From Bolinopsis microptera (taxonomy: Eukaryota > Ctenophora > Tentaculata > Lobata > Bolinopsidae), in contig NC_087077.1 in NCBI RefSeq assembly GCF_026151205.1, positions 6,534,483-6,598,482 of the forward strand: a stretch of DNA of 64,000 nt, given 5' to 3'. Numbering within the stretch: position 1 is the stretch's first letter; the number at the start of each line of letters is the position of its first letter. Both the position numbers and the translations under genes were made by a program. This document shows, piece by piece, positions 1,701 to 63,898 of the stretch. The notes under the pieces are model-generated. The model had not been told where the DNA came from. It was given only the letters and a program-made list of their open reading frames with translations, and did no database searches.

Positions 1701-4700
1701 TTATATAGATGAATTAAGAGTTACTGGGACTCTGTCAGATCCAAAAAATAGTCTCTTAACAAATCTCTTGACATTTGGGTTGAAACATAAGTGTAAGATA
1801 GCATTATTACCTGAAGCAAAAAACAGAGAAAAGTAGTACCAAAGATAAACATAGGTCACATTTTTAAAAATAACGACGTAAGATTGTTCCCAGTCCATAC
1901 CGATTGAGACAGTGACATAATAGTGGATTATTTCAATATAGCAGATGAAATAGTTACAGGAGAGTAGAATAGTCATGAGTATAGCCTGGTTCTCCTTCCT
2001 TCTCTGTCTGAGAACCTTCTTATCCCGTGGAGGAGGTTTAGGACTGTCCTCAGCTGGGGAGCCGCTTATTATGGGGTTTATTGCTACTTGGTTACAATTC
2101 TTGCTTAATTTAATCGTCTCCCCACACTTAATAGATCTTATGCGAGAGAGAGCGTTTCTCATTAGGATGGAGGGTTGGTGGCAGGAGCTGGTTTGCTTCT
2201 TCTTCTTCTTCTTTTGCTTGCGAGATTGGTTCTGAAATGAGGTTCATTGATTAATATGCCTTGCTGAATATTTGAATGTTTTCATCATGATCATTATCTA
2301 TCAATAAAAGACAAAGTAACCTTCGTCAGGTTACCAAGGTAACCATCGTAACCAATCCACCAAGGTAACCTTCGTAAACACCAAGGTAACCTTTGTAACC
2401 AAGGTAACCAAGCCACCAATGTAACCAATGTAACCAAGGTAACCAAGGTAACCAAGGTAACCAAGGTAACCAAGGTAACCAAGGTAACCAAGGTAACCAA
2501 GGTAACCAAGGTAACCAAGGTAACCAAGGTAACCAAGGTAACCAAGGTAACCAAGGTAACCAAGGTAACCAAGGTAACCAAGGTAACCAAGGTAACCAAG
2601 GTAACCAAGGTAACCAAGGTAACCAAGTTACCAAGGTAAACTTTGTAACCAAGGTAACCAAACCACCAAGGTAGCCTTTGTAACCAAGGTAATCAAGTTA
2701 CCAAGGTAACCTTCGTAACCAAGGTAACCAAGCCACCAAGGTAACCAAGGTAACCAAACCACCAAGGTAGCCTTCGTAACCAAGGTGACCAAGCCACCAA
2801 GGTAACCTTCGTAACCAAGGTAACCAAGTTACCAAGGTAAACTTTGTAACCAAGGTAAACTTTGTAACCAAGGTAACCAAACCACCAAGGTAACCTTCGT
2901 TATCAAGGTAACCAAGCCACCAAGATAACCGTCGTTACCAAGGTGACCAAGCCACCAAGGTAACCTTTGCGTAACCAAGGTAACCAAGGTAACCAAGGTA
3001 ACCAAGGTAACCAAGGTAACCAAGGTAACCAAGGTAACCAAGGTAGCCTTTGTAACCAAGGTAACCAAGGTAACCAAGGTAACCAAGGTAACCTTCGTAA
3101 CCAAGGTAACCAAGCCACCAAGGTAACCTTCGTAACCAAGGTGACCAAGCCACCAAGGTAACCTTCGTAACCAAGGTAACCAAGGTAACGAAGGTAACCA
3201 AGGTAACCAAGGTAACCAAGGTAACCAAGGTAACCAAGGTAACCAAGGTAGCCTTTGTAACCAAGGTAACCAAGGTAACCAAGGTAACCAAGGCAACCAA
3301 GGTAACCAAGGTAACCAAGGTAGCCTTTGTAACCAAGGTAACCAAGCCACCAAGGTAGCCTTTGTAACCAAGGTGACCAAGCCACCAAGGTAGCCTTTGT
3401 AACCAAGGTAACCAAGCCACCAAGGTAACCTTCGTAACCAAGGTAATCAAGTTACCAAGAACTAAAAATGTTTAAAACGTCGCTCACCTTCATGACCAGG
3501 ATCTTGACAGCAACCAGAATATTACAGGTGATAATAAGGAAACAAGACACTATGACTGGAACCGTAAACAGAGCTATGTAGATCACTGAAAATAGAAATT
3601 TGCTAAAACGTATTCTGCTAAATAACAGATGTTTTGTTCGATAAATTGAAGATATTATCATTTGATAGCCATCAAACACTTATATTTAATCTAATTTACG
3701 AGCACTATGTCCAATTAATTGAGTTTATCTGATGGAAAATAAATACCTTTTCTAACAGCATCGCTATTAAATGAGTCAAATATTGTCTGGTCGCAGTAGC
3801 CCCAATCTACAAACATTTGGTATGCTTTCACTGAAATATTGTTTAATTTAGCCCCAATCTATAAAAGTTTGGTATTGTCTAATTCATCAAATGGGATTCG
3901 CTGTCAAATCTGTCAAACAAATATCTTCATCAAAGCATATAGGCTCCGGCTCCCCAGTCCTCATAAATGTTTGTTGTTGGACCTTCAATGTAAGCGCAAT
4001 ACGACCGCCTCTATAATTACTTCAATAACTAACCGTCTCTATTTGGTCCAGCGAAGCTGATGGCAGCCCCGATGAAACCATGGCTCCAACAGTAGATAAT
4101 CATTCCCTTGACAACGTTAGATTTGAAGTATTTCTCGTAAGTGAAGGGGCAGTACACAGCTAGGAAGCGTCCAATACTGGCACTTCCCAGGAGTAGAGGT
4201 GTAGTCAGGGATGCCATGTTCCACAGCATACCTGAAATAACACAACAAGTGTAGTGAGATAGAGTTCCTCAAAATTAGAATACTTCTTCTTACTGATTAC
4301 TATATTAATATAGTCAGTATATGAAATGTGTATATTTACCGGTAGGATAACATATAACGTCTCCAAGGACGGACTTGTCATCTTCAAACCATTTCCTCTC
4401 GTTCACTAAGAATATTGAGCCGAAAAGACCAGCGATCCCACTCAAACAGTCTGCGAGAGAATGTCTTAGATAAGAAATAAAGGATTCAAATGAACTGATA
4501 GGGTGATGCTAATAAAAGGGCGAACAGGTGTGACTTATGATTAAAAAAAATAAACTTATACCTAGAGTAGCTAGCTGAAAGAAGATAAACTTATACCTAG
4601 AGTAGCTAGTTGTAAGAAGATAATGTCAGTAACGGACTCCTTTCTCCGTAGTGCAACAAACACATACACCAGCAGACCATTCGCGATAACAGAGAAACAA

Positions 4701-5443
4701 CAAAATACAATTCCTGAAAAGAGTTATAAATTAGCGATAACAGAGAAACAACAAAATACAATTCCTGCAGAGAGTTATTAATGAGCGATAACAGAGAAAC
4801 AACAAAATACAATTCCTGAAAAGAGTTATAAATTAGCGATAACAGAGAAACAACAAAATACAATTCCTGAAGAGAGTTATTAATGAGCGATAACAGAGAA
4901 ACAACAAAATGCAATTCCTGAAGAGAGTTATAAATGAGCGATAACAGAGAAACAACAAAATACAATTCCTGAAAAGAGTTATAAATGAGCGATAACAGAG
5001 AAACAACAAAACACAATTCCTGAAAAGAGTTATAAATGAGCGATAACAGAGAAACAACAAAATACAATTTCTGAAAAGAGTTATAAATGAGCGATAACAG
5101 AGAAACAACAAAACACAATTCCTGAAGAGAGTTATAAATGAGCGATAACAGAGAAACAACAAAATACAATTCCTGAAGAGAGTTATAAATGAGCGATAAC
5201 AGAGAAACAACAAAACACAATTCCTGAAGAGAGTTATTAATAAGCGATAACAGAGAAACAACAAAATACAATTCCTGAAAAGAGTTATAAATTAGCGATT
5301 AAAAATATTAACATGAAATAAAATGTATTATCTGTGACTATACTCTTCCAGTAGTACTAAATTAACTAAATATTAAAATATGCCTCACCGACGGATCCCC
5401 AAACGCAGTCCACTTCCTTGCTGTAGCCTGTAGTCTCATTCAT
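1701..5443 (-). CDS. Class A (rhodopsin-like) G-protein-coupled receptor, 7 exons, divergent orphan
   Basis: Predicted seven-helix plasma-membrane receptor of 397 residues, assembled from exons 5443-5389, 4713-4597, 4450-4340, 4231-4034, 3830-3747, 3585-3488 and 2231-1701. All introns are GT-AG; the first five are phase 1 and the last phase 0, and the frame closes exactly (1194 nt). What is seen: N2 glycosylation sequon; TM1 about 19-40 with the A-N-G-L-L-V pattern; TM2 with LATLD (Asp58, 2.50 position); Cys91 and Cys173 as the likely TM3-ECL2 disulfide pair; TM3 ending GRFLAVYCP where DRY is usual; TM4 with Trp143; TM5 with Pro198; a long basic loop 3 (222-303) with a Lys run; TM6 from about 304 without CWxP; TM7 with NNAILH where NPxxY is usual, then FNPNVKRF as helix 8. 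Start chosen because this ATG has a short open exon spliced in phase to TM1. Ligand unknown. Missing micro-switch motifs suggest unusual activation or a fast-evolving lineage-specific receptor. Confidence 0.87.
2310..3462. repeat. 9-bp GGTAACCAA satellite filling receptor intron 6
   Basis: Tandem GGTAACCAA units with recurring variants (CACCAAGGTAACCTTCGTAA type) that make a loose higher-order pattern. The array fills almost all of the 1256-bp intron between the TM5 exon and the loop-3/TM6-TM7 exon. The unit is 9 bp, so minus-strand frames stay open and give apparent (T-L-V)n or (L-P-W)n proteins; these are artefacts, as the flanking splice sites remove the array. Confidence 0.95.
3798..3875. 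repeat. Decayed 52-bp duplication overlapping receptor exon 5
   Basis: The 26-bp block starting AGCCCCAATCTA occurs at 3798-3823, inside exon 5 (extracellular loop 2), and again at 3850-3875 in intron 4 with a few differences. The second copy carries a stop in the exon frame and is not part of the coding sequence. Confidence 0.75.
4555..4620. repeat. 35-bp tandem duplication of the exon-2 splice donor
   Basis: CTTATACCTAGAGTAGCTAG (minus-strand donor CTAG/GTATAAG) occurs at 4590-4609 and again 35 bp downstream in the gene at 4555-4574. In the second copy ACAA has become TCAG, so a possible acceptor (TTCTTTCAG) lies between the two donors. The insertion is not a multiple of three, so using the distal donor without a further splice would shift the frame. 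Confidence 0.8.
4683..5294. repeat. 12 x 51-bp array containing the exon-2 splice acceptor
   Basis: Twelve 51-bp units, starting at 4683 and every 51 bp after, fill intron 1 of the receptor. Each unit holds 31 nt equal or nearly equal to the start of exon 2 plus the pyrimidine tract and CAG acceptor. The copy at 4713/4714 is the functional junction because only it runs into the rest of the TM1 exon. In any upstream copy the receptor frame meets a TAA after about a dozen codons. Confidence 0.93.
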
Positions 5444-27960: not shown

Positions 27961-30900
27961 TTTATTGCTCTGCAGTGGCGTAACCATGGTAACGTGGCGT
28001 AACGTTGCCTGTTATTGCTCTGCAGTGGCGTAACATTGCCTGTTATTGCTCTGCAGTGGCGTAACCATGGTAACGTGACGTAACGTTACCTGTTATTGCT
28101 CTGCAGTGGCGTAACGTTGCCTGTTATTGCTCTGCAGTGGCGTAACATTGCCTGTTATTGCTCTGCAGTGGCGTAACGTTGCCTGTTATTGCTCTGCAGT
28201 GGCGTAACGTTCTAACGTTGCCTGTTATTGCTCTGCAGTGGCGTAACGTTGCCTGTTATTGCTCTGCAGTGGCGTAACGTTGCCTGTTATTGCTCTGCAG
28301 TGACGTAACGTTGCCTGTTATTGCTCTGCAGTGGCGTAACGTTGCCTGTTATTGCTCTGCAGTGACGTAACGTTGCCTGTTATTGCTCTGCAGTGGCGTA
28401 ACGTTCTAACGTTGCCTGTTATTGCTCTGCAGTGGCGTAACGTTGCCTGTTATTGCTCTGCAGTGGCGTAACGTTGCCTGTTATTGCTCTGCAGTGACGT
28501 AACGTTGCCTGTTATTGCTCTGCAGTGGCGTAACGTTGCCTGTTATTGCTCTGCAGTAACGTAACATTGCCTGTTATTGCTCTGCAGTGGCGTAACCATG
28601 GTAACGTGACGTAACGTTACCTGTTATTGCTCTACAGTGGCGTAACGTTGCCTGTTATTGCTCTGCAGTGGCGTAACGTTGCCTGTTATTGCTCTGCAGT
28701 GACGTAACGTTGCCTGTTATTGCTCTGCAGTGGCGTAACGTTCTAACGTTGCCTGTTATTGCTCTGCAGTGGCGTAACGTTGCCTGTTATTGCTCTGCAG
28801 TGGCGTAACGTTGCCTGTTATTGCTCTGCAGTGACGTAACGTTGCCTGTTATTGCTCTGCAGTGGCGTAACGTTGCCTGTTATTGCTCTGCAGTGACGTA
28901 ACGTTGCCTGTTATTGCTCTGCAGTGACGTAACGTTGCCTGTTATTGCTCTGCAGTGGCGTAACGTTGCCTGTTATTGCTCTGCAGTGCGTAACGTTGCC
29001 TGTTATTGCTCTGCAGTGGCGTAACGTTGCCTGTTATTGCTCTGCAGTGGCGTAACGTTGCCTGTTATTGCTCTGCAGTGGCGTAACGTTCTAACGTTGC
29101 CTGTTATTGCTCTGCAGTGGCGTAACGTTGCCTGTTATTGCTCTGCAGTGGCGTAACGTTGCCTGTTATTGCTCTGCAGTGACGTAACGTTGCCTGTTAT
29201 TGCTCTGCAGTGGCGTAACGTTGCCTGTTATTGCTCTGCAGTGGCGTAACGTTGCCTGTTATTGCTCTGCAGTGGCGTAACGTTCTAACGTTGCCTGTTA
29301 TTGCTCTGCAGTGGCGTAACGTTGCCTGTTATTGCTCTGCAGTGGCGTAACGTTGCCTGTTATTGCTCTGCAGTGGCGTAACGTTCTAACGTTGCCTGTT
29401 ATTGCTCTGCAGTGGCGTAACGTTGCCTGTTATTGCTCTGCAGTGGCGTAACGTTGCCTGTTATTGCTCTGCAGTGCGTAACGTTGCCTGTTATTGCTCT
29501 GCAGTGGCGTAACGTTGCCTGTTATTGCTCTGCAGTGGCGTAACGTTGCCTGTTATTGCTCTGCAGTGACGTAACGTTGCCTGTTATTGCTCTGCAGTGA
29601 CGTAACGTTGCCTGTTACTGCTCTGCAGTGACGTAACGTTGCCTGTTATTGCTCTGCAGTGACGTAACGTTGCCTGTTATTGCTCTGCAGTGGCGTAACG
29701 TTGCCTGTTATTGCTCTGCAGTGGCGTAACGTTGCCTGTTATTGCTCTGCAGTGGCGTAACGTTGCCTGTTATTGCTCTGCAGTGACGTAACGTTGCCTG
29801 TTATTGCTCTGCAGTGGCGTAACGTTGCCTGTTATTGCTCTGCAGTGGCGTAACGTTCTAACGTTGCCTGTTATTGCTCTGCAGTGGCGTAACGTTGCCT
29901 GTTATTGCTCTGCAGTGGCGTAACGTTGCCTGTTATTGCTCTGCAGTGGCGTAACGTTCTAACGTTGCCTGTTATTGCTCTGCAGTGGCGTAACGTTGCC
30001 TGTTATTGCTCTGCAGTGGCGTAACGTTGCCTGTTATTGCTCTGCAGTGGCGTAACGTTCTAACGTTGCCTGTTATTGCTCTGCAGTGGCGTAACGTTGC
30101 CTGTTATTGCTCTGCAGTGGCGTAACGTTGCCTGTTATTGCTCTGCAGTGGCGTAACGTTGCCTGTTATTGCTCTGCAGTGGCGTAACGTTGCCTGTTAT
30201 TGCTCTGCAGTGGCGTAACGTTGCCTGTTATTGCTCTGCAGTGGCGTGCTGTTGCCTGTTATTGCTCTGCAGTGGCGTAACGTTGCCTGTTATTGCTCTG
30301 CAGTGGCGTAACGTTGCCTGTTATTGCTTTGCAGTGGCGTAACGTTGCCTGTTATTGCTCTGCAGTGGCGTAACGTTGCCTGTTATTGCTCTGCAGTGGC
30401 GTAACGTTGCCTGTTATTGCTCTGCAGTGGCGTAACGTTGCCTGTTATTGCTCTGCAGTGGCGTAACGTTGCTTGTTAGTGCTCTGCAGTGGCGTAACGT
30501 TGCCTGTTATTGCTCTGCAGTGGCGTAAAGTTGCCTGTTATTGCTCTGCAGTGACGTAACGTTGCCTGTTATTGCTCTGCAGTGGCGTAACGTTCTAACG
30601 TTGCCTGTTATTGCTCTGCAGTGGCGTAACGTTGCCTGTTATTGCTCTGCAGTGGCGTAACGTTGCCTGTTATTGCTCTGCAGTGGCGTAACGTTGCCTG
30701 TTATTGCTCTGCAGTGGCGTAACGTTCTAACGTTGCCTGTTATTGCTCTGCAGTGGCGTAACGTTGCCTGTTATTGCTCTGCAGTGGCGTAACGTTGCCT
30801 GTTATTGCTCTGCAGTGGCGTAACGTTGCCTGTTATTGCTCTGCAGTGGCGTAACGTTGCCTGTTATTGCTCTGCAGTGGCGTAACGTTCTAACGTTGCC

Positions 30901-33900
30901 TGTTATTGCTCTGCAGTGGCGTAACGTTGCCTGTTATTGCTCTGCAGTGGCGTAACGTTGCCTGTTATTGCACTGCAGTGGCGTAACGTTGCCTGTTATT
31001 GCTCTGCAGTGGCGTAACGTTGCCTGTTATTGCTCTGTAGTGGCGTAACGTTGCCTGTTATTGCTCTGCAGTGGCGTAACGTTGCCTGTTATTGATCTGC
31101 AGTGGCGTAACGTTGCCTGTTATTGCTCTGCAGTGACGTAACGTTGCCTGTTATTGCTCTGCAGTGGCGTAACGTTGCTTGTTAGTGCTCTGCAGTGGCG
31201 TAACGTTGCCTGTTATTGCTCTGCAGTGGCGTAAAGTTGCCTGTTATTGCTCTGCAGTGACGTAACGTTGCCTGTTATTGCTCTGCAGTGGCGTAACGTT
31301 CTAACGTTGCCTGTTATTGCTCTGCAGTGGCGTAACGTTGCCTGTTATTGCTCTGCAGTGGCGTAACGTTGCCTGTTATTGCTCTGCAGTGGCGTAACGT
31401 TGTCTGTTATTGCTCTGCAGTGGCGTAACGTTCTAACGTTGCCTGTTATTGCTCTGCAGTGGCGTAACGTTGCCTGTTATTGCTCTGCAGTGGCGTAACG
31501 TTGCCTGTTATTGCTCTGCAGTGGCGTAACGTTCTAACGTTGCCTGTTATTGCTCTGCAGTGGCGTAACGTTGCCTGTTATTGCTCTGCAGTGGCGTAAC
31601 GTTGCCTGTTATTGCTCTGCAGTGGCGTAACGTTGCCTGTTATTGCTCTGTAGTGGCGTAACGTTGCCTGTTATTGCTCTGCAGTGACGTAACGTTGCCT
31701 GTTATTGCTCTGCAGTGACGTAACGTTGCCTGTTATTGCTCTGCAGTGGCGTAACGTTGCCTGTTATTGCTCTGTAGTGGCGTAACGTTGCCTGTTATTG
31801 CTCTGCAGTGGCGTAACGTTGCCTGTTATTGCTCTGCAGTGGCGTAACGTTGCCTGTTATTGCTCTGCAGTGACGTAACGTTGCCTGTTATTGCTCTGCA
31901 GTGGCGTAACGTTGCCTGTTATTGCTCTGCAGTGACGTAACGTTGCCTGTTATTGCTCTGCAGTGACGTAACGTTGCCTGTTATTGCTCTGCAGTGGCGT
32001 AACGTTGCCTGTTATTGCTCTGCAGTGACGTAACGTTGCCTGTTATTGCTCTGCAGTGGCGTAACGTTGCCTGTTATTGCTCTGCAGTGACGTAACGTTG
32101 CCTGTTATTGCTCTGCAGTGGCGTAACGTTGTCTGTTATTGCTCTGCAGTGACGTAACGTTGCCTGTTATTGCTCTGCAGTGGCGTGCTGTTGCCTGTTA
32201 TTGCTCTGCAGTGGCGTAACGTTGCCTGTTATTGCTCTGCAGTGGCGTAACGCTGCCTGTTATTGCTCTGCAGTGGCGTAACGTTGCCTGTTATTGCTCT
32301 GCAGTGGCGTAACGTTGCCTGTTATTGCTCTGCAGTGACGTAACGTTGCCTGTTATTGCTCTGCAGTGGCGTAACGTTGCCTGTTATTGCTCTGCAGTAA
32401 CGTAACATTGCCTGTTATTGCTCTGCAGTGGCGTAACCATGGTAACGTGACGTAACGTTACCTGTTATTGCTCTACAGTGGCGTAACGTTGCCTGTTATT
32501 GCTCTGCAGTGGCGTAACGTTGCCTGTTATTGCTCTGCAGTGACGTAACGTTGCCTGTTATTGCTCTGCAGTGGCGTAACGTTCTAACGTTGCCTGTTAT
32601 TGCTCTGCAGTGGCGTAACGTTGCCTGTTATTGCTCTGCAGTGGCGTAACGTTGCCTGTTATTGCTCTGCAGTGACGTAACGTTGCCTGTTATTGCTCTG
32701 CAGTGGCGTAACGTTGCCTGTTATTGCTCTGCAGTGACGTAACGTTGCCTGTTATTGCTCTGCAGTGACGTAACGTTGCCTGTTATTGCTCTGCAGTGGC
32801 GTAACGTTGCCTGTTATTGCTCTGCAGTGCGTAACGTTGCCTGTTATTGCTCTGCAGTGGCGTAACGTTGCCTGTTATTGCTCTGCAGTGGCGTAACGTT
32901 CTAACGTTGCCTGTTATTGCTCTGCAGTGGCGTAACGTTGCCTGTTATTGCTCTGCAGTGGCGTAACGTTGCCTGTTATTGCTCTGCAGTGACGTAACGT
33001 TGCCTGTTATTGCTCTGCAGTGGCGTAACGTTGCCTGTTATTGCTCTGCAGTGGCGTAACGTTGCCTGTTATTGCTCTGCAGTGGCGTAACGTTCTAACG
33101 TTGCCTGTTATTGCTCTGCAGTGGCGTAACGTTGCCTGTTATTGCTCTGCAGTGGCGTAACGTTGCCTGTTATTGCTCTGCAGTGGCGTAACGTTCTAAC
33201 GTTGCCTGTTATTGCTCTGCAGTGGCGTAACGTTGCCTGTTATTGCTCTGCAGTGGCGTAACGTTGCCTGTTATTGCTCTGCAGTGCGTAACGTTGCCTG
33301 TTATTGCTCTGCAGTGGCGTAACGTTGCCTGTTATTGCTCTGCAGTGGCGTAACGTTGCCTGTTATTGCTCTGCAGTGACGTAACGTTGCCTGTTATTGC
33401 TCTGCAGTGACGTAACGTTGCCTGTTATTGCTCTGCAGTGACGTAACGTTGCCTGTTATTGCTCTGCAGTGACGTAACGTTGCCTGTTATTGCTCTGCAG
33501 TGGCGTAACGTTGCCTGTTATTGCTCTGCAGTGGCGTAACGTTGCCTGTTATTGCTCTGCAGTGGCGTAACGTTGCCTGTTATTGCTCTGCAGTGACGTA
33601 ACGTTGCCTGTTATTGCTCTGCAGTGGCGTAACGTTGCCTGTTATTGCTCTGCAGTGGCGTAACGTTCTAACGTTGCCTGTTATTGCTCTGCAGTGGCGT
33701 AACGTTGCCTGTTATTGCTCTGCAGTGGCGTAACGTTGCCTGTTATTGCTCTGCAGTGGCGTAACGTTCTAACGTTGCCTGTTATTGCTCTGCAGTGGCG
33801 TAACGTTGCCTGTTATTGCTCTGCAGTGGCGTAACGTTGCCTGTTATTGCTCTGCAGTGGCGTAACGTTCTAACGTTGCCTGTTATTGCTCTGCAGTGGC

Positions 33901-36336
33901 GTAACGTTGCCTGTTATTGCTCTGCAGTGGCGTAACGTTGCCTGTTATTGCTCTGCAGTGGCGTAACGTTCTAACGTTGCCTGTTATTGCTCTGAAGTGG
34001 CGTAACGTTGCCTGTTATTGCTCTGCAGTGGCGTAACGTTGCCTGTTATTGCTCTGCAGTGGCGTAACGTTGCCTGTTATTGCTCTGCAGTGGCGTAACG
34101 TTGCCTGTTATTGCTCTGCAGTGGCGTAACGTTGCCTGTTATTGCTCTGCAGTGGCGTGCTGTTGCCTGTTATTGCTCTGCAGTGGCGTAACGTTGCCTG
34201 TTATTGCTCTGCAGTGGCGTAACGTTGCCTGTTATTGCTTTGCAGTGGCGTAACGTTGCCTGTTATTGCTCTGCAGTGGCGTAACGTTGCCTGTTATTGC
34301 TCTGCAGTGGCGTAACGTTGCCTGTTATTGCTCTGCAGTGGCGTAACGTTGCCTGTTATTGCTCTGCAGTGGCGTAACGTTGCTTGTTAGTGCTCTGCAG
34401 TGGCGTAACGTTGCCTGTTATTGCTCTGCAGTGGCGTAAAGTTGCCTGTTATTGCTCTGCAGTGACGTAACGTTGCCTGTTATTGCTCTGCAGTGGCGTA
34501 ACGTTCTAACGTTGCCTGTTATTGCTCTGCAGTGGCGTAACGTTGCCTGTTATTGCTCTGCAGTGGCGTAACGTTGCCTGTTATTGCTCTGCAGTGGCGT
34601 AACGTTGCCTGTTATTGCTCTGCAGTGGCGTAACGTTCTAACGTTGCCTGTTATTGCTCTGCAGTGGCGTAACGTTGCCTGTTATTGCTCTGCAGTGGCG
34701 TAACGTTGCCTGTTATTGCTCTGCAGTGGCGTAACGTTGCCTGTTATTGCTCTGCAGTGGCGTAACGTTGCCTGTTATTGCTCTGCAGTGGCGTAACGTT
34801 CTAACGTTGCCTGTTATTGCTCTGCAGTGGCGTAACGTTGCCTGTTATTGCTCTGCAGTGGCGTAACGTTGCCTGTTATTGCTCTGCAGTGGCGTAACGT
34901 TGCCTGTTATTGCTCTGCAGTGGCGTAACGTTGCCTGTTATTGCTCTGTAGTGGCGTAACGTTGCCTGTTATTGCTCTGCAGTGGCGTAACGTTGCCTGT
35001 TATTGATCTGCAGTGGCGTAACGTTGCCTGTTATTGCTCTGCAGTGACGTAACGTTGCCTGTTATTGCTCTGCAGTGGCGTAACGTTGCTTGTTAGTGCT
35101 CTGCAGTGGCGTAACGTTGCCTGTTATTGCTCTGCAGTGGCGTAAAGTTGCCTGTTATTGCTCTGCAGTGACGTAACGTTGCCTGTTATTGCTCTGCAGT
35201 GGCGTAACGTTCTAACGTTGCCTGTTATTGCTCTGCAGTGGCGTAACGTTGCCTGTTATTGCTCTGCAGTGGCGTAACGTTGCCTGTTATTGCTCTGCAG
35301 TGGCGTAACGTTGTCTGTTATTGCTCTGCAGTGGCGTAACGTTCTAACGTTGCCTGTTATTGCTCTGCAGTGGCGTAACGTTGCCTGTTATTGCTCTGCA
35401 GTGGCGTAACGTTGCCTGTTATTGCTCTGCAGTGGCGTAACGTTCTAACGTTGCCTGTTATTGCTCTGCAGTGGCGTAACGTTGCCTGTTATTGCTCTGC
35501 AGTGGCGTAACGTTGCCTGTTATTGCTCTGCAGTGGCGTAACGTTGCCTGTTATTGCTCTGTAGTGGCGTAACGTTGCCTGTTATTGCTCTGCAGTGACG
35601 TAACGTTGCCTGTTATTGCTCTGCAGTGACGTAACGTTGCCTGTTATTGCTCTGCAGTGGCGTAACGTTGCCTGTTATTGCTCTGTAGTGGCGTAACGTT
35701 GCCTGTTATTGCTCTGCAGTGGCGTAACGTTGCCTGTTATTGCTCTGCAGTGGCGTAACGTTGCCTGTTATTGCTCTGCAGTGACGTAACGTTGCCTGTT
35801 ATTGCTCTGCAGTGGCGTAACGTTGCCTGTTATTGCTCTGCAGTGACGTAACGTTGCCTGTTATTGCTCTGCAGTGACGTAACGTTGCCTGTTATTGCTC
35901 TGCAGTGGCGTAACGTTGCCTGTTATTGCTCTGCAGTGACGTAACGTTGTCTGTTATTGCTCTGCAGTGACGTAACGTTGTCTGTTATTGCTCTGCAGTG
36001 GCGTAACGTTGCCTGTTATTGCTCTGCAGTGACGTAACGTTGTCTGTTATTGCTCTGCAGTGACGTAACGTTGCCTGTTATTGCTCTGCAGTGGCGTGCT
36101 GTTGCCTGTTATTGCTCTGCAGTGGCGTAACGTTGCCTGTTATTGCTCTGCAGTGGCGTAACGCTGCCTGTTATTGCTCTGCAGTGGCGTTATGTTGCCT
36201 GTTAATGCTCTGCAGTGGCGTAAAGTTGCCTGTTATTGCTCTGCAGTGGCGTAAAGTTGCCTGTTATTGCTCTGCAGTGGCGTAACGTTGCCTGTTATTG
36301 CTCTGCAGTGGCGTAACGTTGCCTGTTATTGCTCTG
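27961..36336. repeat. 8.4-kb satellite of ~31-bp units with higher-order structure
   Basis: Roughly 260 copies of a ~31-bp unit, GCCTGTTATTGCTCTGCAGT then GGCGTAACGTT. Common variants: GACGT for GGCGT, an added TCTAACGT block, and a longer form with CCATGGTAACGTGACGTAAC. Rare variants act as markers: GCAGTAACGTAACATTG at 28553 and 32394 (3841 bp apart), GTGGCGTGCTG at 30241 and 34152, and at 32180 and 36091 (each 3911 bp apart), GCTTGTTAGTGC at about 30471, 31171, 34382 and 35091. The array is therefore built from segmental duplications of about 3.9 kb, with a nested ~0.7-kb period. No transcript or protein is implied. Confidence 0.97.
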
Positions 36337-46387: not shown

Positions 46388-47353
46388 CTGAATGGTGATT
46401 GCAATTAGCAAACCTAGCAGAGCGTTAAGAGTGGCTGAGTTGGTGATTGCAATTAACAAATCTAGCAGAGCGCTAAGTGATGCTGAGTTGGTGATTGCAA
46501 TTAGCAAACCTAGCAGAGCGTTAAGAGTAAGTGTGGCTGAGTTGGTGATTGCAATTAACAAATCTAGCAGAGCGCTAAGTGTGGCTGAGTTGGTGATTAC
46601 AATTAACAAACCTAGCAGAGCGCTAAGTGAGGCTGAGTTGGTGATTGCAATTAGCAAACCTAGCAGAGCGCTAAGTGTGGCTGAGTTGGTGATTGCAATT
46701 AGCAAACCTAGCAGAGCGCTAAGTGTGGCTGCGTTGGTGATAGCAATTAGCAAATCTAGCAGAGCGCTAAGTGTGGCTGAGTTGGTGATTGCAATTAGCA
46801 AACCTAGCAGAGCGCTAAGTGTGGCTGAGTTGGTGATTGCAATTAGCAAACCTAGCAGAGCGCTAAGTGTGGCTGAGTTGGTGATTGCAATTAGCAAACC
46901 TAGCAGAGCGCTAAGTGTGGCTGCGTTGGTGATAGCAATTAGCAAACCTAGCAGAGCGCTAAGTGTGGCTGAGTTGGTGATTGCAATTAGCAAACCTAGC
47001 AGAGCGCTAAGTGTGGCTGAGTTGGTGATTGCAATTACTTAGCAAACCTAGCAGAGCGCTAAGTGACGCTGAGTTGGTGATTGCAATTAGCAAATCTAGC
47101 AGAGCGCTAAGTGTGGCTGAGTTGGTGATTGCAATTAGCAAACCTAGCAGAGCGCTAAGTGTGGCTGAGTTGGTGATTGCAATTAGCAAACCTAGCAGAG
47201 CGCTAAGTGTGGCTGAGTTGGTGATTGCAATTAGCAAACCTAGCAGAGCGCTAAGTGTGGCTGAGTTGGTGATTGCAATTAGCAAACCTAGCAGAGCGCT
47301 AAGTGTGGCTGAGTTGGTGATTGCAATTAGCAAACCTAGCAGAGCGCTAAGTG
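46388..47353. repeat. 48-bp minisatellite, left part
   Basis: About 20 copies of a 48-bp unit, CTAAGTGTGGCTGAGTTGGT followed by GATTGCAATTAGCAAACCTA and GCAGAGCG. The unit is 16 codons, so both strands stay open: ALSVAELVIAISKPSR on plus, LIAITNSATLSALLGL on minus. Ends at GCTAAGTG (47346-47353), the left copy of an 8-bp duplication flanking the LINE. Confidence 0.96.
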
Positions 47354-50300
47354 TTCCAGTTTCTTTTGTGTATCTCCCTCTCTCAATAAGAAGGTCATGG
47401 CTACTGGAGCGGATTTTTGCTATGTGCATGCGACATTGACTATTTTTTAGATTGAGATACTGCTCCTCTCCGAATACCTGTTTGATAGTGCAGTAAAATT
47501 GCATTTTCTTTTGGGATGCTAAATCTGTTCTCCAATCTTTTACAAAGTGATCAACCAAATTTCCATGTGCAGTTGAGGTCGTTCCTTCTGCTCTGTGTTG
47601 GTCGGATCGAGCGAATTTGGCCGCTTTGGATTCAGACTGAGCGATCGAGTTCCAGGTCTTATACCAAGAGAGGTTTAGATTCTTCTGCTCTTGGAATGTC
47701 TGATGTACAAGAAAGTTGACGCTGCTCACGTCGGGTGATGTCTGAGACAATCTGTCGAAGTATCTCAGGCATTGTGGTAGTACCGACAGGGCCCATGGTA
47801 ACCTGCCCGTATCTCCGTAACAGAAGTTGTTGTTAGCTTTCTTGTGTAAGCCGAGCACCCATTTCAGCATTTTCAGGTGTGTTGTCTCAAGTGCGTCCTT
47901 TGTTGCAGCTCTAGCAAGGTTCTGTCTTGAACCATCAGCGCAAGCCATCTCCTTTGCCATTTTTGTACACGGTAGCCATATCTGACAGGCATACGTAGCG
48001 ACTGGTTTAACGAGGCTGTCTATAAGCTTGAGCATGGTTTTTGTTGTTAATGCTCGAGTGTCGACCATGCGTCTGATCGAGAAAAATGCTCTTAGTGCTT
48101 TTTTCCTCAGTTCGTTCATGGCACCTTTAAATGAACCGTTGAGACTGAATTGAATGCCTAGATAGCAGTAAGATTTGGCCGATGAGATGTCCAGGTTCCC
48201 TAGTTTGAACCCGTAGGAGCACTTCAGCAAACGAGAGCTCGAGTTGAATACCATGATTTTGGTTTTGTCGATGTTAATTGACAGTTCCCATTTACTTGCA
48301 AATTCGTGCAGGCAATCAAGTTGTTTCTGCAGGCTTTTGGCGTCGAGTGCCAAAAGTATCAGGTCGTCTGCCCACAGAAGATGGCTGACCGGGAAGCCGT
48401 TCAGTTCTGGAATTGACAAGTCCTCAAGAGCTGCTAGTCTAATGGAGAGGTCATAAATGTATACCTTGAAGAGCTCCGGCGACATTGGATGCCCCTGTTC
48501 GGTACCAATGGTGACATCGATGGTGTCCGACAGCTTCTTGCTCAGTTTGATACGGGTAACTGAGTTGCTGTACATGTTCTGGAGGCAAGAGAAGAAGCTT
48601 CCTCCGATACCAAGTCTACTGAGTTTGTACATGAGAGCCTCCCTGCAGACTGTGTCGAACGCCTTACGATAGTCCACGAAGCAAGCGAATATTTTCTTCT
48701 TCAGCTTCTTTGTATACTTCTCGATGATCGTTGTAAGGGTCAGGATATGGTCAGAGCACTGGGCACCAGCTCTGAATCCGAGTTGGTGAGGGAAGTCGGG
48801 ACAGACGACTTTACGGAATTCGATCAGCCTATCAAGGAGGAGGGATGCAAAGAGTTTTCCAAGGCAACTTCCGACTGTGATTGCTCTATAGTTATCGGGG
48901 TTCTGCTTGTCCCCCTTTTTGTGTAGGGGGGTAGTTATTGAGCAGTTCCAGGGGTAGATTCCTTGCGTTAGGCAACCATTGAATAGTTTCAGAAGGACTT
49001 TTTGGAGACCGAGTTTGGAGCTCTTGAGCATCTCGTTGGAGATAAGATCACATGAAACGCTTTTGTTATTCTGGAGCTTATTGGTGACTTTCTTTAGTTC
49101 TTGGATAGTAAACTCTGTGTTGAGTTTTTCAAGTTCGACTGATGGCTCGAGGTGGTACTCGGTTCCCTGTTCACCAGCTTCGTTGGTCGAAGTGTTCGTT
49201 TGTAGTCCACCGTGCGAGGGGTCCTTGCACTTCTGATTGTATAGGTCGTTGAAGAACTTGTGAAATGCGATCAGGTCATATATGTCGAATGTATCGGGGT
49301 CCTTGCAAGCGGACGAGAGGTCTTTTAAAGCAGCCCAGTTGATGTTGTTGCTGAGGTTGATTTTCTCGTTAAGTTTGTATAGGTAAGCTCCCTTTCTAGC
49401 TCGTGTTTGTGCCCTGTATTCTTTCTTACGGAGGTAAAATCTTGCTCGGTTGGATTCCACGAGCATAGGATCGATGTGGGTGTTATTCTTGGCTCTTTCG
49501 TCTCTACAGACTAATCGTTTAGCATGCCTACAACTCCAATCAAACCATTTGTTTTTGTTAGTACTGGGCTTTCCACTTTTCTGGGTGGTAACTTGACTTG
49601 CCAGGTTAGTAAAGGTGGCAATCACAATTTCATTGAAACTGCGAATGTCGTCAGGGGAGGAAATATCAGTTTGAAGAAGAGAATCAACTTTTTCTTTGAA
49701 TTGAGCGGTGTTCTGGGCTGACTTGAATTTTTCTGTGGTACCAAGTCCAGAGCAGGCATCTTTGGTCCACTTGAATGGCTTCGGGATCGATGCGAATTTG
49801 AGCTCCATTTCGTTCGAGATGTCGCCAGCCATCACAATGTTCCTTATGTTAGTGGTTAAAGTGGTGGATATTGGTCTGTGGTCAGAATAAGGGGTGAGGT
49901 CACCAACTTTGAAGAACCTTGCCCGATGAAGGAGGCTGTGGGACACGCAAATGTAGTCGACCGTACTTACTCCATTTCTTTGAATGCAAGTTGGACTGCC
50001 AAATATGTCCCCAATTGTCCTTCCGTTTAGGATTATCATTCCAGTTGTCTGGAGTAGCTCAATGAAGGGTTTGCCGTTGGAGTTGAGAATCCGATCTTGG
50101 TTGTTTCTAGAGGCTACCTCAGTAGGAGATATAGAATGCTGGGGAGGATCGAGTTCAACTTGAAGGTCCCTAGACTCGCATGGTATAAGGAAGTCGTTCA
50201 ATGTGCCGGTCCGCGCGTTCATGTCACCAAGTATGGCAGCATCTTCGGAGTCGGGGATATTTGATAGACACTCTTCTAAGTGCTCACAAGTGGTTGTATA

Positions 50301-50711
50301 TTGTTCCATTTTGGAACGCATTCGTTTCTTGTATGAGCCATGAGCTGGCGAGTCGTACACATTGATAAGATTCAGATCTTTGTCAAGGTTGAAGTATTTG
50401 GCTTTAAGCTTTACGATGAGTATGTCGTCGCATTTGGAAAAATGAACTCTGACTACTCCTGCAGCCAAGTGCTTCCGGATCGCTGTGCACACGCCACCTG
50501 AGTTGCTATCCGATCTGTTGGCGTTGAAGCATTTGAATTCCCGCATAGAAACCTGTCCTTTAGTTTCTTGTAGGCAGACGATATCGTGGCCAGCTATGAG
50601 CTTCTGGACCTCGTCAATTTCGAATTTGACACCCTCAAATTTGTCACGCTGGTGGTTGATGTTCCAGCTCATGAGTTTGAGTGAGTGTCTCATCTTAGGG
50701 GGGCTATTCAT
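47354..50711 (-). CDS. LINE ORF2: APE endonuclease and reverse transcriptase, 3'-truncated
   Basis: About 1119 LINE-derived residues from ATG at 50711. The endonuclease nicks target DNA and the reverse transcriptase copies LINE RNA onto it. Endonuclease motifs: SWNI (15-18), CLQET with catalytic Glu49, GDMNAR near 160, SDHRPI near 273. Reverse-transcriptase motifs: NPDNYRAITVGSCLGK, LGFRAGAQCSDH, FVDYRKAFDT near 677, EQGHPMSPELF near 737, LLWADDLILLA near 777 (WADD in place of the usual YADD, both Asp kept), then CYLGIQFS. A C-terminal region follows to RGRYTKETGT, where the 48-bp repeat begins in frame; the usual Cys/His-containing end is missing. ORF2 overlaps ORF1 by 8 nt at GATGAATAG. The open frame continues as repeat-encoded residues to 47007. 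No internal stop, so insertion is probably recent. Confidence 0.95.
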
Positions 50712-52861
50712 CTCTAAACCTGTTCGTGCTGCGTCTGGATCTGTCCTTAGGTTGGTAGCTTACTCGAGGTAAGCGCATTGTTTTCCTCATTCCTTCACGG
50801 AGGCGCACCCACAGCATTTTTTGACCTCGTTCTCTCAGCTTGAACCCTTCGTTACTTGTGTAAAAGTTTTGGTCACCGATGCTGTCATTTTGGAAGGTAA
50901 AGATCCTATTTTTTGCAACCGGCTTGTGTTTGTGGAGCCAGCTCACATAGTCTTCAACATCTTTGTTGACGATGCTGATTCTCTCATTGAGGGCTTTATC
51001 GTTGCTCGATGGAATCAGTCCTGAGAAGCATATTTGGGCTTTGGTTGTGTTCATCAGGTGCTCGGAGAACTCCTCAACGATACTCACGAGACCAGATTTC
51101 TTTTTGAGAAGGTCATTTATCCCCGTGTGAACATATATGCATTCGGGCTTGAGTCGTTTGATGGTGCTGTTCAATAGCTTTGTTTTTTTAGTCGTATCCT
51201 CATAGCTGTCAAACTTGAGGCAGTGTACATTGAATTGACTATTGAACAGTTTAGGGTTGAAGTGATCAAAGTTACTATCGTGGATCAGAAGAACAGTGTG
51301 CTGTCTGTAACTTTCCCTTATTCGCCTGGAAGATTTGTTTCTACTCTCCTTGGCTTCACGACTCGGTTGATTAGGTTGTGCCTCGTATGCGGTGGTCTCT
51401 GAATGTTTTGACTCACTGCGGTTGTCCTGTCTGGTTGCTGGTACAGGTACATTCTCTTTGTGGTTTTTGCTGTTCTTCTTGTTCGATGTAGTGAACGTCT
51501 CGGAGCCTCCATTCTCAACGATCTTGGACCACAGGATACCCTGTTCGCTTTCCCTGTTCGTATCATCGACAGAGGCCGGTGTGTCACGCCGGGCGGGCTT
51601 GTGGTTCGCCGGAGGCTGTGGTGAACTGGTGAGGGCCTGCGTCAGACTCTCATGGTTTACTTCAAGTGCCTCGATTCGGGTCCTATTTGAGGAACTTACA
51701 ATTTCAAATGACTGAAAGGCTAGATTGAGCTCACCCTTTAGCTCTTCGGCTGTGGCTTGTGACTGGTTCTTAGCAGTGTTTGCCACACTCTTGACTGCTT
51801 TCTTCAGATTGTCTTGGCCTAGCTCAAGTGTTTCGAACTGCCTTCTATTAGCGATATTCGTTGCTTCCAACTTGTTGAAGCAGTTAGCAAGCTCAGCTCT
51901 TAAGTCTGGAGAGGACTGAGTCCTCGTGTTGGCCACTAGGTTCAGAGTATTGTTCTGTTCATCTACTGCCTCTCTAAGTAGGTTGAGGTCAGCTCTTAGT
52001 TGGTTCACTTTGTCTTCAATCGGACTGAGCTTTTTCGCGACTAAGACTTCCAGCTTTTTGTCTGAGGCAGTAGGTGACGAGATGATCAGGTCAGAGATTG
52101 CCTTTTGTTGCAGTATCTCTTCTTTAAGCGTAATAATACTGTCTTGTAGCACTGTCACCGCCGCCTTTAACTCAGAGCATTGACTGCATTCGGTACTTAT
52201 TAGGTGACCCTTGAGGGGCATATCGCCCGCAGTTTCCATGTCGTCGTTAATTTCAGTGGTTGGCCCGTTAGCGGATAATAGGCTCCCGGTATCAGGTGCG
52301 ACTAAAGAATTCTGATGAGGACCAAGGGGGACGCGAGGGGAGGTGTTGTTGCTACCCTTTTTTTCCTTTTTCTTTCTGTGCGACTTTCCCTTTTTTTTCT
52401 TCTTCGCACTTCTAGTGCAAGATTGATCCTTGGGGGTACCAAATTGAAATTTGGTATCAGTGTTACCAGACAGAGGTCCATCAGGGGTTACGTAGTCGCC
52501 CGAATCGTGTGGGCTCGGTTGGTCACGGAGAGACGGTGTGTTGTGCAACTGTAAGATGTTGCGGGTTGAATTACTCTGATCATCCTCACCTGGATTTTCG
52601 AAAACTAGTCTAATCGCGTTACTGTTGCCACTACACTGATTATTACAAAACGAAATCAGAGCCTTTTTTCTTTCTTGGGCTGAAAGGCTCAAGGGAAGAT
52701 AATTGGCAAGGAGTTCCATTCTGATCACTGTTTCTTCGAGTTTATTGATGAGATGAGTGAGTAATTTCACCGTGTTCTTGCTTCCTGTAGACTCACAAGT
52801 TTCGAGTAGGTCACAGAGTTTCTTTTTGTTGAGAGAGACATTGTTGCTACCCTTGAGTCCA
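50704..52861 (-). CDS. LINE ORF1 with SGNH-esterase-like domain, 5'-truncated
   Basis: Open frame of about 719 codons from the array junction to the TAG at 50706-50704. There is no in-frame ATG near the junction (first is near 52719), and the sequence before it (NKKKLCDLLETCESTG) looks coding, so the true start is lost. From a nominal start at 52770: a Lys-rich stretch near 120-140, predicted coiled coil about 195-270, and a C-terminal domain from about 485 with IHDSNF, YVHTGINDL near 547 and NEGFKLRERGQ near 645. These fit blocks I, III and V of SGNH/GDSL esterases found in ORF1 of CR1/L2-type LINEs, although the usual final Asp-x-x-His is not evident. Such proteins bind LINE RNA or membranes and assist retrotransposition; here only the family resemblance is claimed. 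Confidence 0.85.
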
Positions 52862-55800
52862 GCTAAGTGTGGCTGAGTTGGTGATTACAATTAGCAAACC
52901 TAGCAGAGCGCTAAGTGTGGCTGAGTTGGTGATTGCAATTAGCAAACCTAGCAGAGCGCTAAGTGAAGCTGAGTTGGTGATTGCAATTAGCAAACCTAGC
53001 AGAGCGCTAAGTGTGGCTGAGTTGGTGATTGCAATTAGCAAACCTAGCAGAGCGCTAAGTGTGGCTGAGTTGGTGATTGCAATTAACAAACCTAGCAGAG
53101 CGCTAAGTGTGGCTGAGTTGGTGATTGCAATTAGCAAACCTACCAGACCGCTAAGTGATGCTGAGTTGGTGATTGCAATTAGCAAACCTAGCAGAGCGCT
53201 AAGTGTGGCTGAGTTGGTGATTGCAATTAGCAAACCTAGCAGAGCGCTAAGTGTGGCTGAGTTGGTGATTGCAATTAGCAAACCTAGCAGAGCGCTAAGT
53301 GAGGCTGAGTTGGTGATTGCAATTAGCAAACCTAGCAGAGCGCTAAGTGTGGCTGAGTTGGTGATTGCAATTAGCAAATCTAGCAGAGCGCTAAGTGTGG
53401 CTGAGTTGGTGATTGCAATTAGCAAACCTAGCAGAGCGCTAAGTGTGGCTGAGTTGGTGATTGCAATTAGCAAACCTAGCAGAGCACTAAGTGTGGCTGA
53501 GTTGGTGATTGCAATTAGCAAACCTAGCAGAGCGCTAAGTGTGGCTGAGTTGGTGATTGCAATTAGCAAACCTAGCAGAGCGCTAAGTGTGGCTGAGTTG
53601 GTGATTACAATTAGCAAACCTAGCAGAGCGCTAAGTGTGGCTGAGTTGGTGATTGCAATTAGCAAACCTAGCAGAGCGCTAAGTGTGGCTGAGTTGGTGA
53701 TTGCAATTAGCAAATCTAGCAGAGCGCTAAGTGTGGCTGAGTTGGTGATTGCAATTAGCAAACCTAGCAGAGCGCTAAATGTGGCTGAGTTGGTGATTGC
53801 AATTAGCAAATCTAGCAGAGCGCTAAGTGTGGCTGAGTTGGTGATTGCAATTAGCAAACCTAGCAGAGCGCTAAGTGTGGCTGAGTTGGTGATTGCAATT
53901 AGCAAACCTAGCAGAGCGCTAAGTGAGGCTGAGTTGGTGATTGCAATTAGCAAACCTAGCAGAGCGCTAAGTGTGGCTGAGTTGGTGATTGCAATTAGCA
54001 AACCTAGCAGAGCGCTAAGTGTGGCTGAGTTGGTGATTGCAATTAGCAAACCTAGCAGAGCGCTAAGTGTGGCTGAGTTGGTGATTACAATTAGCAAACC
54101 TAGCAGAGCGCTAAGTGTGGCTGAGTTGGTGATTGCAATTAGCAAACCTAGCAGAGCGCTAAGTGTGGCTGAGTTGGTGATTGCAATTAGCAAACCTAGC
54201 AGAGCGCTAAGTGAGGCTGAGTTGGTGATTGCAATTAGCAAACCTAGCAGAGCGCTAAGTGTGGCTGAGTTGGTGATTGCAATTAGCAAACCTAGCAGAG
54301 CGCTAAGTGTGGCTGAGTTGGTGATTGCAATTAGCAAACCTAGCAGAGCGCTAAGTGTGGCTGAGTTGGTGATTGCAATTAGCAAACCTAGCAGAGCGCT
54401 AAGTGTGGCTGAGTTGGTGATTGCAATTAGCAAACCTAGCAGAGCGCTAAGTGAGGCTGAGTTGGTGATTGCAATTAGCAAACCTAACAGAGCGCTAAGT
54501 GAGGGTGAGTTGGTGATTGCAATTAGCAAACCTAACAGAGCGCTAAGCGACGCTGAGTTGGTGATTGCAATTAGCAAACCTAGCAGAGCGCTAAGTGTGG
54601 CTGAGTTGGTGATTGCAATTAGCAAACCTAGCAGAGCGCTAAGTGTGGCTGAGTTGGTGATTGCAATTAGCAAACCTAGCAGAGCGCTAAGTGTGGCTGA
54701 GTTGGTGATTACAATTAGCAAACCTAGCAGAGCGCTAAGTGTGGCTGAGTTGGTGATTGCAATTAGCAAACCTAGCAGAGCGCTAAGTGTGGCTGAGTTG
54801 GTGATTGCAATTAGCAAACCTAGCAGAGCGCTAAGTGTGGCTGAGTTGGTGATTGCAATTAACAAACTTAGCAGAGCGCTAAGTGTGGCTGAGTTGGTGA
54901 TTGCAATTAGCAAACCTAGCAGAGCGCTAAGTGTGGCTGAGTTGGTGATTGCAATTAGCAAACCTAGCAGAGCGCTAAGTGTGGCTGAGTTGGTGATTGC
55001 AATTAGCAAACCTAGCAGAGCGCTAAGTGTGGCTGAGTTGGTGATTGCAATTAGCAAACCTAGCAGAGCGCTAAGTGTGGCTGAGTTGGTGATTGCAATT
55101 AGCAAACCTAGCAGAGCGCTAAGTGTGGCTGAGTTGGTGATTGCAATTAGCAAACCTAGCAGAGCGCTAAGTGAGGCTGAGTTGGTGATTGCAATTAGCA
55201 AACCTAGCAGAGCGCTAAGTGTGGCTGAGTTGGTGATTGCAATTAGCAAACCTAGCAGAGCGCTAAGTGAGGCTGAGTTGGTGATTGCAATTAACAAACC
55301 TAGCAGAGCGCTAAGTGTGGCTGAGTTGGTGATTGCAATTAGCAAACCTAGCAGAGCGCTAAGTGTGGCTGAGTTGGTGATTGCAATTAGCAAACCTAGC
55401 AGAGCGCTAAGTGTGGCTGAGTTGGTGATTGCAATTAACAAACCTAGCAGAGCGCTAAGTGTGGCTGAGTTGGTGATTGCAATTAGCAAACCTAGCAGAG
55501 CGCTAAGTGTGGCTGAGTTGGTGATTGCAATTAGCAAACCTAGCAGAGCGCTAAGTGAGGCTGAGTTGGTGATTGCAATTAGCAAACCTAGCAGAGCGCC
55601 AAGCGATGCTAAATGGTGATTGCAATTAGCAAACCTAGCAGAGCGCTAAGTGTGGCTGAGTTGGTGATTGCAATTAGCAAACCTAGCAGAGCGCTAAGTG
55701 TGGCTGAGTTGGTGATTGCAATTAGCAAACCTAGCAGAGCGCTAAGTGAGGCTGAGTTGGTGATTGCAATTAGCAAACCTAGCAGAGCGCCAAGCGATGC

Positions 55801-58800: not shown

Positions 58801-59333
58801 CTAAGTGTGGCTGAGTTGGTGATTGCAATTAACAAACCTAGCAGAGCGCTAAGTGAGGCTGAGTTGGTGATTGCAATTAGCAAACCTAGCAGAGCGCTAA
58901 GTGTGGCTGAGTTGGTGATTGCAATTAGCAAACCTAGCAGAGCGCTAAGTGACGCTGAGTTGGTGATTGCAATTAGCAAACCTAGCAGAGCGCTAAGTGT
59001 GGCTGAGTTGGTGATTGCAATTAGCAAACCTAGCAGAGCGCTAAGTGTGGCTGAGTTGGTGATTGCAATTAGCAAACCTAGCAGAGCGCTAAGTGTGGCT
59101 GAGTTGGTGATTGCAATTAGCAAACCTAGCAGAGCGCTAAGTGTGGCTGAGTTGGTGATTGCAATTAGCAAACCTAGCAGAGCGCTAAGTGTGGCTGAGT
59201 TGGTGATTGCAATTAGCAAACCTAGCAGAGCGCTAAGTGTGGCTGAGTTGGTGATTGCAATTAGCAAACCTAGCAGAGCGCTAAGTGAGGCTGAGTTGGT
59301 GATTGCAATTACTTAGCAAACCTAGCAGAGCGC
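52862..59333. repeat. 48-bp minisatellite, right part
   Basis: About 135 copies of the same unit as 46388-47353, resuming at GCTAAGTG after the LINE. Variation concentrates at GTGGCT (GATGCT, GACGCT, GAGGCT, GAAGCT), AGCAAA/AACAAA, AAACCT/AAATCT and GCAATT/GCAAAA. Marker variants reveal 192-bp (4-unit) and 1220-bp periods. Open frames of 912-916 codons exist on both strands at the same place and are not genes. Confidence 0.97.
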
Positions 59334-63148: not shown

Positions 63149-63697
63149 TTACATCTTGTAAACAGCAAATCGAACACAAATTATTCTTGCTACGTTCCAG
63201 TTTGTTGATGGCCTGTTTGTTCTCGCATACTGAAAGGCGTCTTCTTTTTCGATGTCAGTTCTAAATTGCTCATAATCTGAAGCATTTTCCAACAGCTTTG
63301 GTGTCAGAAATAACATCGTATTGTTTGATGGGTGGAAAAACTTGAGTTCGTCAGTGGACCGATTTTTCAGAATGAAACCAAAAGCGACATTTATTTTAAT
63401 TTTACGATTGTAGTTTGAAATTACCCGTTATGCTTTAGACTTAATTTCGCTATCTTCGTTTTCAAAAAGAGGGAAATGAAACGTATCACGTATCCGACCA
63501 TGTTTGAGACTTTCTCTAATTGTTCTCCAGTTTTGTTGATAAACTGGGCGGTACAACTCTGGCAAGGTTTGTAGAATTGCTGCATCCATAACGAGTTTAA
63601 TGGAAATTAATGATTTAACGGCCACAAGTTCAGGTCCTTTTATAGCCTGAAAATGATGCACATATTTTTTTTTGTCAATAATTATAGTGGCGTTCAT
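63149..63697 (-). pseudogene. Unrecognised ORF of 183 codons with one in-frame stop
   Basis: From ATG 63697 (good context, ACCATGAAC, with an in-frame TAG upstream) 89 codons run to TAA at 63430-63428. The same frame then continues for 92 codons to 63149. The second part is clearly protein-like: VAFGFILKNRSTDELKFFHP, FLTPKLLENASDYEQF, ARTNRPSTNWNVARI. The frame's last bases AAGAT/GTAAGAAG form a strong splice donor, so more exons may follow. I do not recognise the family. The TAA makes it a broken gene, a readthrough case or a sequence error. Confidence 0.55.
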
Positions 63698-63898
63698 GGT
63701 ATCGAGTTTGACTTTAAATGTCTATTATTAATAAGTAGAAGTAAATTGGAAACCTGTAGAAACTGATAAATTATGTTATAATAGGAAGTAAGTCAAGCTG
63801 CTTATTCCTTTCGAATTTGTAGATTAAAATCACGAATGATTGATTTTTAATTTTCAATGCACAAAATTAAAGACAAATTAACATGCCTGGTTTTTCGG

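Follow-up and report, generated by a model that had tools for sequence, protein, structure and literature searches.

The start of exon 2 in a predicted class A GPCR gene of the ctenophore Bolinopsis microptera is multiplied, together with the 3' end of intron 1, into a tandem array that carries twelve near-identical acceptors. The array, located in a 64,000-nucleotide stretch of contig NC_087077.1 (hereafter the window, numbered from its first letter), is confirmed as an observation and lies far beyond chance: compared with the 300 nt of intron that precede it, the exon 2 acceptor region scores 102, whereas none of 300 dinucleotide shuffles exceeds 29. The reading that we prefer, at a probability of roughly 0.6, is that of a neutral minisatellite of the 'mirage' type, i.e., a boundary duplication later expanded, in which the exon-proximal acceptor is used most.

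The host gene and the anatomy of the array

The host gene lies on the minus strand and is predicted to be complete, with seven exons encoding 397 aa, an ATG at 5443, a stop codon ending at 1701 and GT-AG ends in 6/6 introns (Table 1); the exon structure, splice boundaries included, is a prediction from sequence. Upstream of the ATG, TAATAA provides two in-frame stops (by eye). Introns 2 to 5 measure 146, 108, 203 and 161 nt, respectively. The product matches the Pfam profile 7tm_1 (1.1e-17; residues 30-355, profile positions 2-250 of 260) over seven helices, as expected of class A (rhodopsin-like) receptors; the nematode-type family Srx also matches (1.5e-07), and among solved structures GPR34 is the closest by sequence, with an E of only 0.0013 (residues 19-130). 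Hydropathy in 19-residue windows (cut-off 1.2) gives segments for TM1 to TM6, while TM7 stays below the cut-off and the seventh helix is based on the Pfam match. A tblastn search within the window (E up to 10) found no clear paralogue, its matches being the gene, its array, a decayed partial copy of exon 5 in intron 4 (E 1.2) and, elsewhere, two that are weak (E 1.8 and 8.4).

Table 1. Predicted exons of the receptor gene and repeats within it, in order of transcription
Feature	Position	Strand	Remark or basis
Exon 1	5389-5443	-	Predicted; ATG, N-terminus MNETTGYSKEVDCVWGSV; donor GTGAGG at 5388
ATCGC	5295-5299	-	In unique intron sequence directly upstream of the first unit; possible founding microhomology
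51-bp tandem array	4683-5299	-	Intron 1 3' end and exon 2 start; 12 acceptors at 4713+51n; Tandem Repeats Finder
Exon 2	4597-4713	-	117 nt, TM1 to TM2; begins with 31 nt that belong to the last 51-bp unit
35-bp tandem duplication	4543-4623	-	Across the exon 2 donor, 2.3 copies; Tandem Repeats Finder and boundary scan
Exon 3	4340-4450	-	111 nt
Exon 4	4034-4231	-	198 nt
Decayed copy of part of exon 5	3849-3875	-	27 nt, in intron 4; 89% identical to 3797-3823, 52 bp apart
Exon 5	3747-3830	-	84 nt, between TM4 and TM5
Exon 6	3488-3585	-	98 nt, TM5
9-bp array	2328-3459	-	AGGTAACCA on the + strand; most of intron 6, short of any exon boundary
Exon 7	1701-2231	-	531 nt, through the stop codon

For the array as a whole, Tandem Repeats Finder gives a period of 51, 12.1 copies, 94% matches, 0% indels and a score of 1101. 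The preliminary description had placed it at 4683-5294, which corresponds to exactly 12 whole units (the full extent reaching 5299), and had proposed the junction 5388/4713, in agreement with an exon 1 that ends at 5389, an intron that starts at 5388 and an exon 2 that starts at 4713. Read on the minus strand, each unit does span the boundary between intron 1 and exon 2 as described, with 20 nt of intron ending in CAG and 31 nt of exon, the first of exon 2, and the real boundary of exon 2, as predicted, is that of the last unit (4713). The acceptors also fall where they had been placed (n=0-11), behind near-identical pyrimidine tracts: CAG is kept in 12/12 copies, the tract preceding it is CTCTTTT, CTCTCTT or, in one copy, CTCTCTG, and all twelve junctions read CAG/GAA or CAG/AAA (the slash marking the junction).

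Variation among the units is confined to 7 of the 51 columns, with a mean pairwise identity of 95.3% and an average divergence of 4.7%, and since so few columns vary, the intact AG is no evidence of selection. Three of the twelve units (the first, the one at 4815 and that of the true boundary) share all 51 bases, so local site strength is unable to choose among those three; one type is thus represented by both outermost units and a single inner one, and the remaining nine differ from it. Tandem arrays are prone to assembly error, and the copy number or even the whole array might be wrong; as the seven variable columns tell the units apart and the period of 51 is held with 0% indels, we consider an artefact very improbable. 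The exact 24-nt pattern of the unit has no match in viral contigs. No hidden RNA fold was found in intron 1 and most of exon 2 (4600-5388), which is less structured than its shuffles (z +5.1, 20 shuffles).

Joined to 4713, the predicted exon 1 opens a product of 397 aa; joined to a decoy, it would encode 30 aa (3/11) or 31 aa (8/11), i.e., 12 or 13 residues past the junction. This bears out the earlier claims that the upstream acceptors run into TAA after about a dozen codons (11/11 stop within 12-13 codons) and that only the last one leads to a full exon, that of TM1; it alone gives the full receptor. The count of twelve acceptors ahead of the true exon has to be amended, twelve being the total of 11 decoys plus the true site. 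With the first decoy, intron 1 would measure 114 nt and exon 2 678 nt, as against 675 nt and 117 nt with the true site. As the unit length is a multiple of three (17 codons), a single ancestral TAA was copied in frame into every unit, and its persistence needs no selection.

Several kinds of splice-site array known from elsewhere were compared with this anatomy. Dual-specific sites in polyubiquitin UBC and VCX3A likewise place a splice site in a tandem repeat and, in the available text of PMC10809524, need AG/GT; a dual-specific or recursive array is rejected here, as AG/GT occurs in 0/12 copies and no array site can thus serve as a donor. A NAGNAG tandem acceptor needs a spacing of 3 nt, whereas the present acceptors are 51 nt apart. 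Decoy units as micro-exons were also discarded, the best GT in the unit being without exonic AG, though its score of 5/9 equals that of the real exon 2 donor. The same GT (ATT/GTATTT) argues against boundary copies on their way to recruitment as new exons or introns, a route from mirages proposed for amphioxus globins in the portion of PMC3087553 consulted; this objection is weak, given that the real exon 2 donor also reaches only 5 of 9 against the donor consensus and the others 6-8, and with an in-frame stop in every decoy unit as well, such an intron birth appears highly unlikely.

Duplications at other boundaries of the gene

The multiplied acceptor, to which the preliminary description is confined, is not the only duplication of its kind in this gene. 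When all 12 splice boundaries were compared with up to 300 nt of adjoining intron (300 shuffles each), a significant copy was found at three of them (exon 2 acceptor, exon 2 donor and exon 5 acceptor; 0/300 shuffles each), while the other nine are without a duplicate in that adjoining sequence. Such duplications thus recur in this gene. At exon 5, the repeat is visible in exon sequence only, no intron part being visibly repeated between the copies, and for this reason its assignment as an older, decayed boundary duplication is given as probable. At the exon 2 donor, the 35-bp duplication provides two donors with an identical 9-mer (intron start at 4596 or 4561), of which the outer (4561) leads to a stop. 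The innermost acceptor-donor pair of exon 2 is the frame-keeping pair at both ends, and an intact receptor requires it at both ends. In the outer copy of the donor duplication the exonic TTACAA reads TTTCAG, and by eye the 22 nt between the copies start with GT and end in TTTCAG, as a very short intron would; the resemblance is probably due to chance, and removal of this segment would shift the frame.

In a compact version of the gene, the chance by position that a 51-bp duplication, not wholly coding, straddles a boundary is 53%, and that of a 35-bp duplication 40%; with the present intron lengths, these values are 21% and 15%. As a boundary would be straddled about half the time in the compact gene, the involvement of a splice site is unremarkable, and it is the tolerance of the duplication that is remarkable. 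Two separate duplications in one exon might also mark a failing allele, in which a multiplied acceptor and a doubled donor leave little functional receptor and the gene drifts towards a pseudogene, and if the closest pair across the intron is chosen, both duplications of exon 2 would favour stop products. Against such decay, neither the 397-aa frame nor any of the 12 splice sites is disrupted despite an average unit divergence of 4.7% (a weak argument, as a short time leaves few stops), and we hold this fate to be improbable.

Tandem repeats also occur away from the exon boundaries. In the 9-bp array of intron 6, the consensus unit differs from the 51-bp unit in having no AG on the transcribed strand, while variant copies hold AG (by eye). 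Elsewhere in the window, a 31-bp array of about 260 copies extends over 8 kb (28075-36336), and a LINE-type element within 46393-59333 has the same 48-bp tandem array on both flanks; its ORF2 (endonuclease and reverse transcriptase; 47007-50759, minus) enters the 48-bp array without a stop, and an upstream frame (50707-52884) has no Pfam match. Searching the ORF2 protein against bacterial and archaeal genome contigs gave 39 pattern hits, none of them confirmed as a relative. At 63149-63721 (minus), a pair of adjacent open frames (92 and 97 aa), possibly exons or a mobile element, has no Pfam match above the curated cut-off. Neither a tRNA nor an Rfam match was found in the window, and CACGTGAC occurs somewhat often, with 3 and 4 copies on the two strands versus about 0.7 expected on each, a sponge-like trait but too weak a signal to build on.

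Origin of the array and choice among its acceptors

Judged by its anatomy as predicted from the sequence, the array is a mirage, its twelve units carrying intron and exon sequence across a predicted boundary and its splice signals being kept. Mirages are duplicated intron-exon boundaries in amphioxus genes (Adh3, the globins BflGb6 and BflGb9, troponin C and PGBD5) and are said to leave regular splicing undisturbed (PMC3087553, PMC3902484); in the accessible portion of PMC3902484, lancelet PGBD5 carries the same kind of repeat, and Adh and troponin C are cited as being without aberrant mRNAs. As here, their units reportedly cross an exon boundary, be it on the 5' or the 3' side, with splice signals kept in many, but not all, of the published copies (CAG in 12/12 here), and the present units of 51 and 35 bp fall inside the 10-160 bp given there. 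In contrast, copies number 12 here, as opposed to 3 and 6 in BflGb6 and a maximum of 7 in one PGBD5 assembly; the host is a GPCR gene; and a single exon has both of its ends duplicated, an arrangement that the available text does not describe for the amphioxus cases. Length instability between haplotypes or cells is a mirage trait, whereas the present array is known from one sequence, and all comparisons made here concern that one sequence of one haplotype. Internal tandem repeats at exon-intron boundaries are also reported from human segmental duplications (PMC2812944, as far as its available text goes), likewise minisatellites able to alter splicing; they are described as having given rise to novel introns with transcript support, while the present array is known from the genome. 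Within the partly accessible literature searched, no comparable acceptor array in a GPCR gene was found.

A history consistent with the preferred mirage reading would begin with duplication, by slippage or microhomology repair, of a 51-bp segment delimited by an ATCGC motif in intron 1 and another in exon 2. ATCGC precedes the first unit and recurs at the end of the exonic 31 nt in each unit (4683-4687 in the last), giving two 5-bp matches 51 bp apart, and it is a possible microhomology of the founding duplication; a length of only 5 bp counts against this history. Growth to 12 units may then have proceeded partly in two-unit steps, a course that would fit the differences between units, which average 1.70 at lag 2 versus 2.64 at lag 1 (1.6% of 20,000 order shuffles being as extreme; the test was chosen after the pattern had been seen, and the signal is modest). 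In the resulting gene, the spliceosome would mostly pick 4713, the acceptor nearest the exon 2 donor, because exon 2 would be recognised as a unit, leaving the decoys mostly silent; transcripts spliced to a decoy would meet an early stop and be lost. The intact frame of 397 aa over seven exons with GT-AG in 6/6 introns supports the mirage reading, as does the recurrence of boundary duplications in this gene and as would, by analogy, the published mirages, which have the same anatomy and reportedly undisturbed splicing.

The rules that govern competition between sites pull in two directions. According to human data in the available text of PMC9225289, competition between near-equal sites in short introns favours the pair with the smallest distance across the intron, while exon definition favours the pair closest across the exon; among competing acceptors the upstream one is preferred overall, most strongly with short introns, and exon definition reduces this preference. 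The across-intron rule would pick the decoy at 5274 and the outer donor at 4561, both leading to stops, and the across-exon rule would pick 4713 and 4596, yielding an intact receptor. The short introns 2 to 5 (108-203 nt) suggest intron definition, in which the upstream of near-equal acceptors is favoured; they speak against the mirage reading and for the across-intron rule. Given an upstream branch point, the reported search from the branch point to the first AG (PMC1431707, seen in part) speaks for that rule as well. The across-exon rule has the intact gene and, by analogy, the amphioxus precedent on its side, and on balance the innermost acceptor-donor pair would be somewhat the likelier choice.

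The same considerations bear on a regulatory role such as the preliminary description proposed, in which the decoys would be used appreciably, the early-stop transcripts degraded and receptor output set by the length of the array. All 11 decoys run into a stop 12-13 codons on, two of them match the true site over all 51 nt, the upstream acceptor tends to prevail over its competitor in the human data, the more so in short introns (PMC9225289, in part), and would be favoured by a first-AG search from an upstream branch point (PMC1431707, likewise), and the short introns of the gene leave room for tuning by copy number. On the other side, the mirages of amphioxus globin, Adh and troponin C genes reportedly leave regular splicing undisturbed, and the stops, copied with a unit divisible by three from one ancestral TAA, persist without selection; such a control is thus regarded as unlikely, if the most plausible of the competing accounts. 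A more demanding version, in which each added 51-bp unit is a near-equal dead-end acceptor, germline or somatic changes in copy number shift the full-length fraction so that output differs between alleles or cells, and the exon 2 donor duplication would add a second switch, is more doubtful still.

A natural test of splice-site pairing

With 12 acceptors in one intron, three of them identical over 51 nt, the gene represents a natural version of the classic duplicated-splice-site experiment, and with two donors of one 9-mer at the same exon it offers a clean natural test of splice-site pairing; this multiplication of both ends of one exon is the uncommon feature of the present case. The splicing of this gene bears on exon definition versus donor distance in this lineage and on the tolerance of mirages. 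If the decoys are used, the copy number of the array would be a mutable control of receptor dose.
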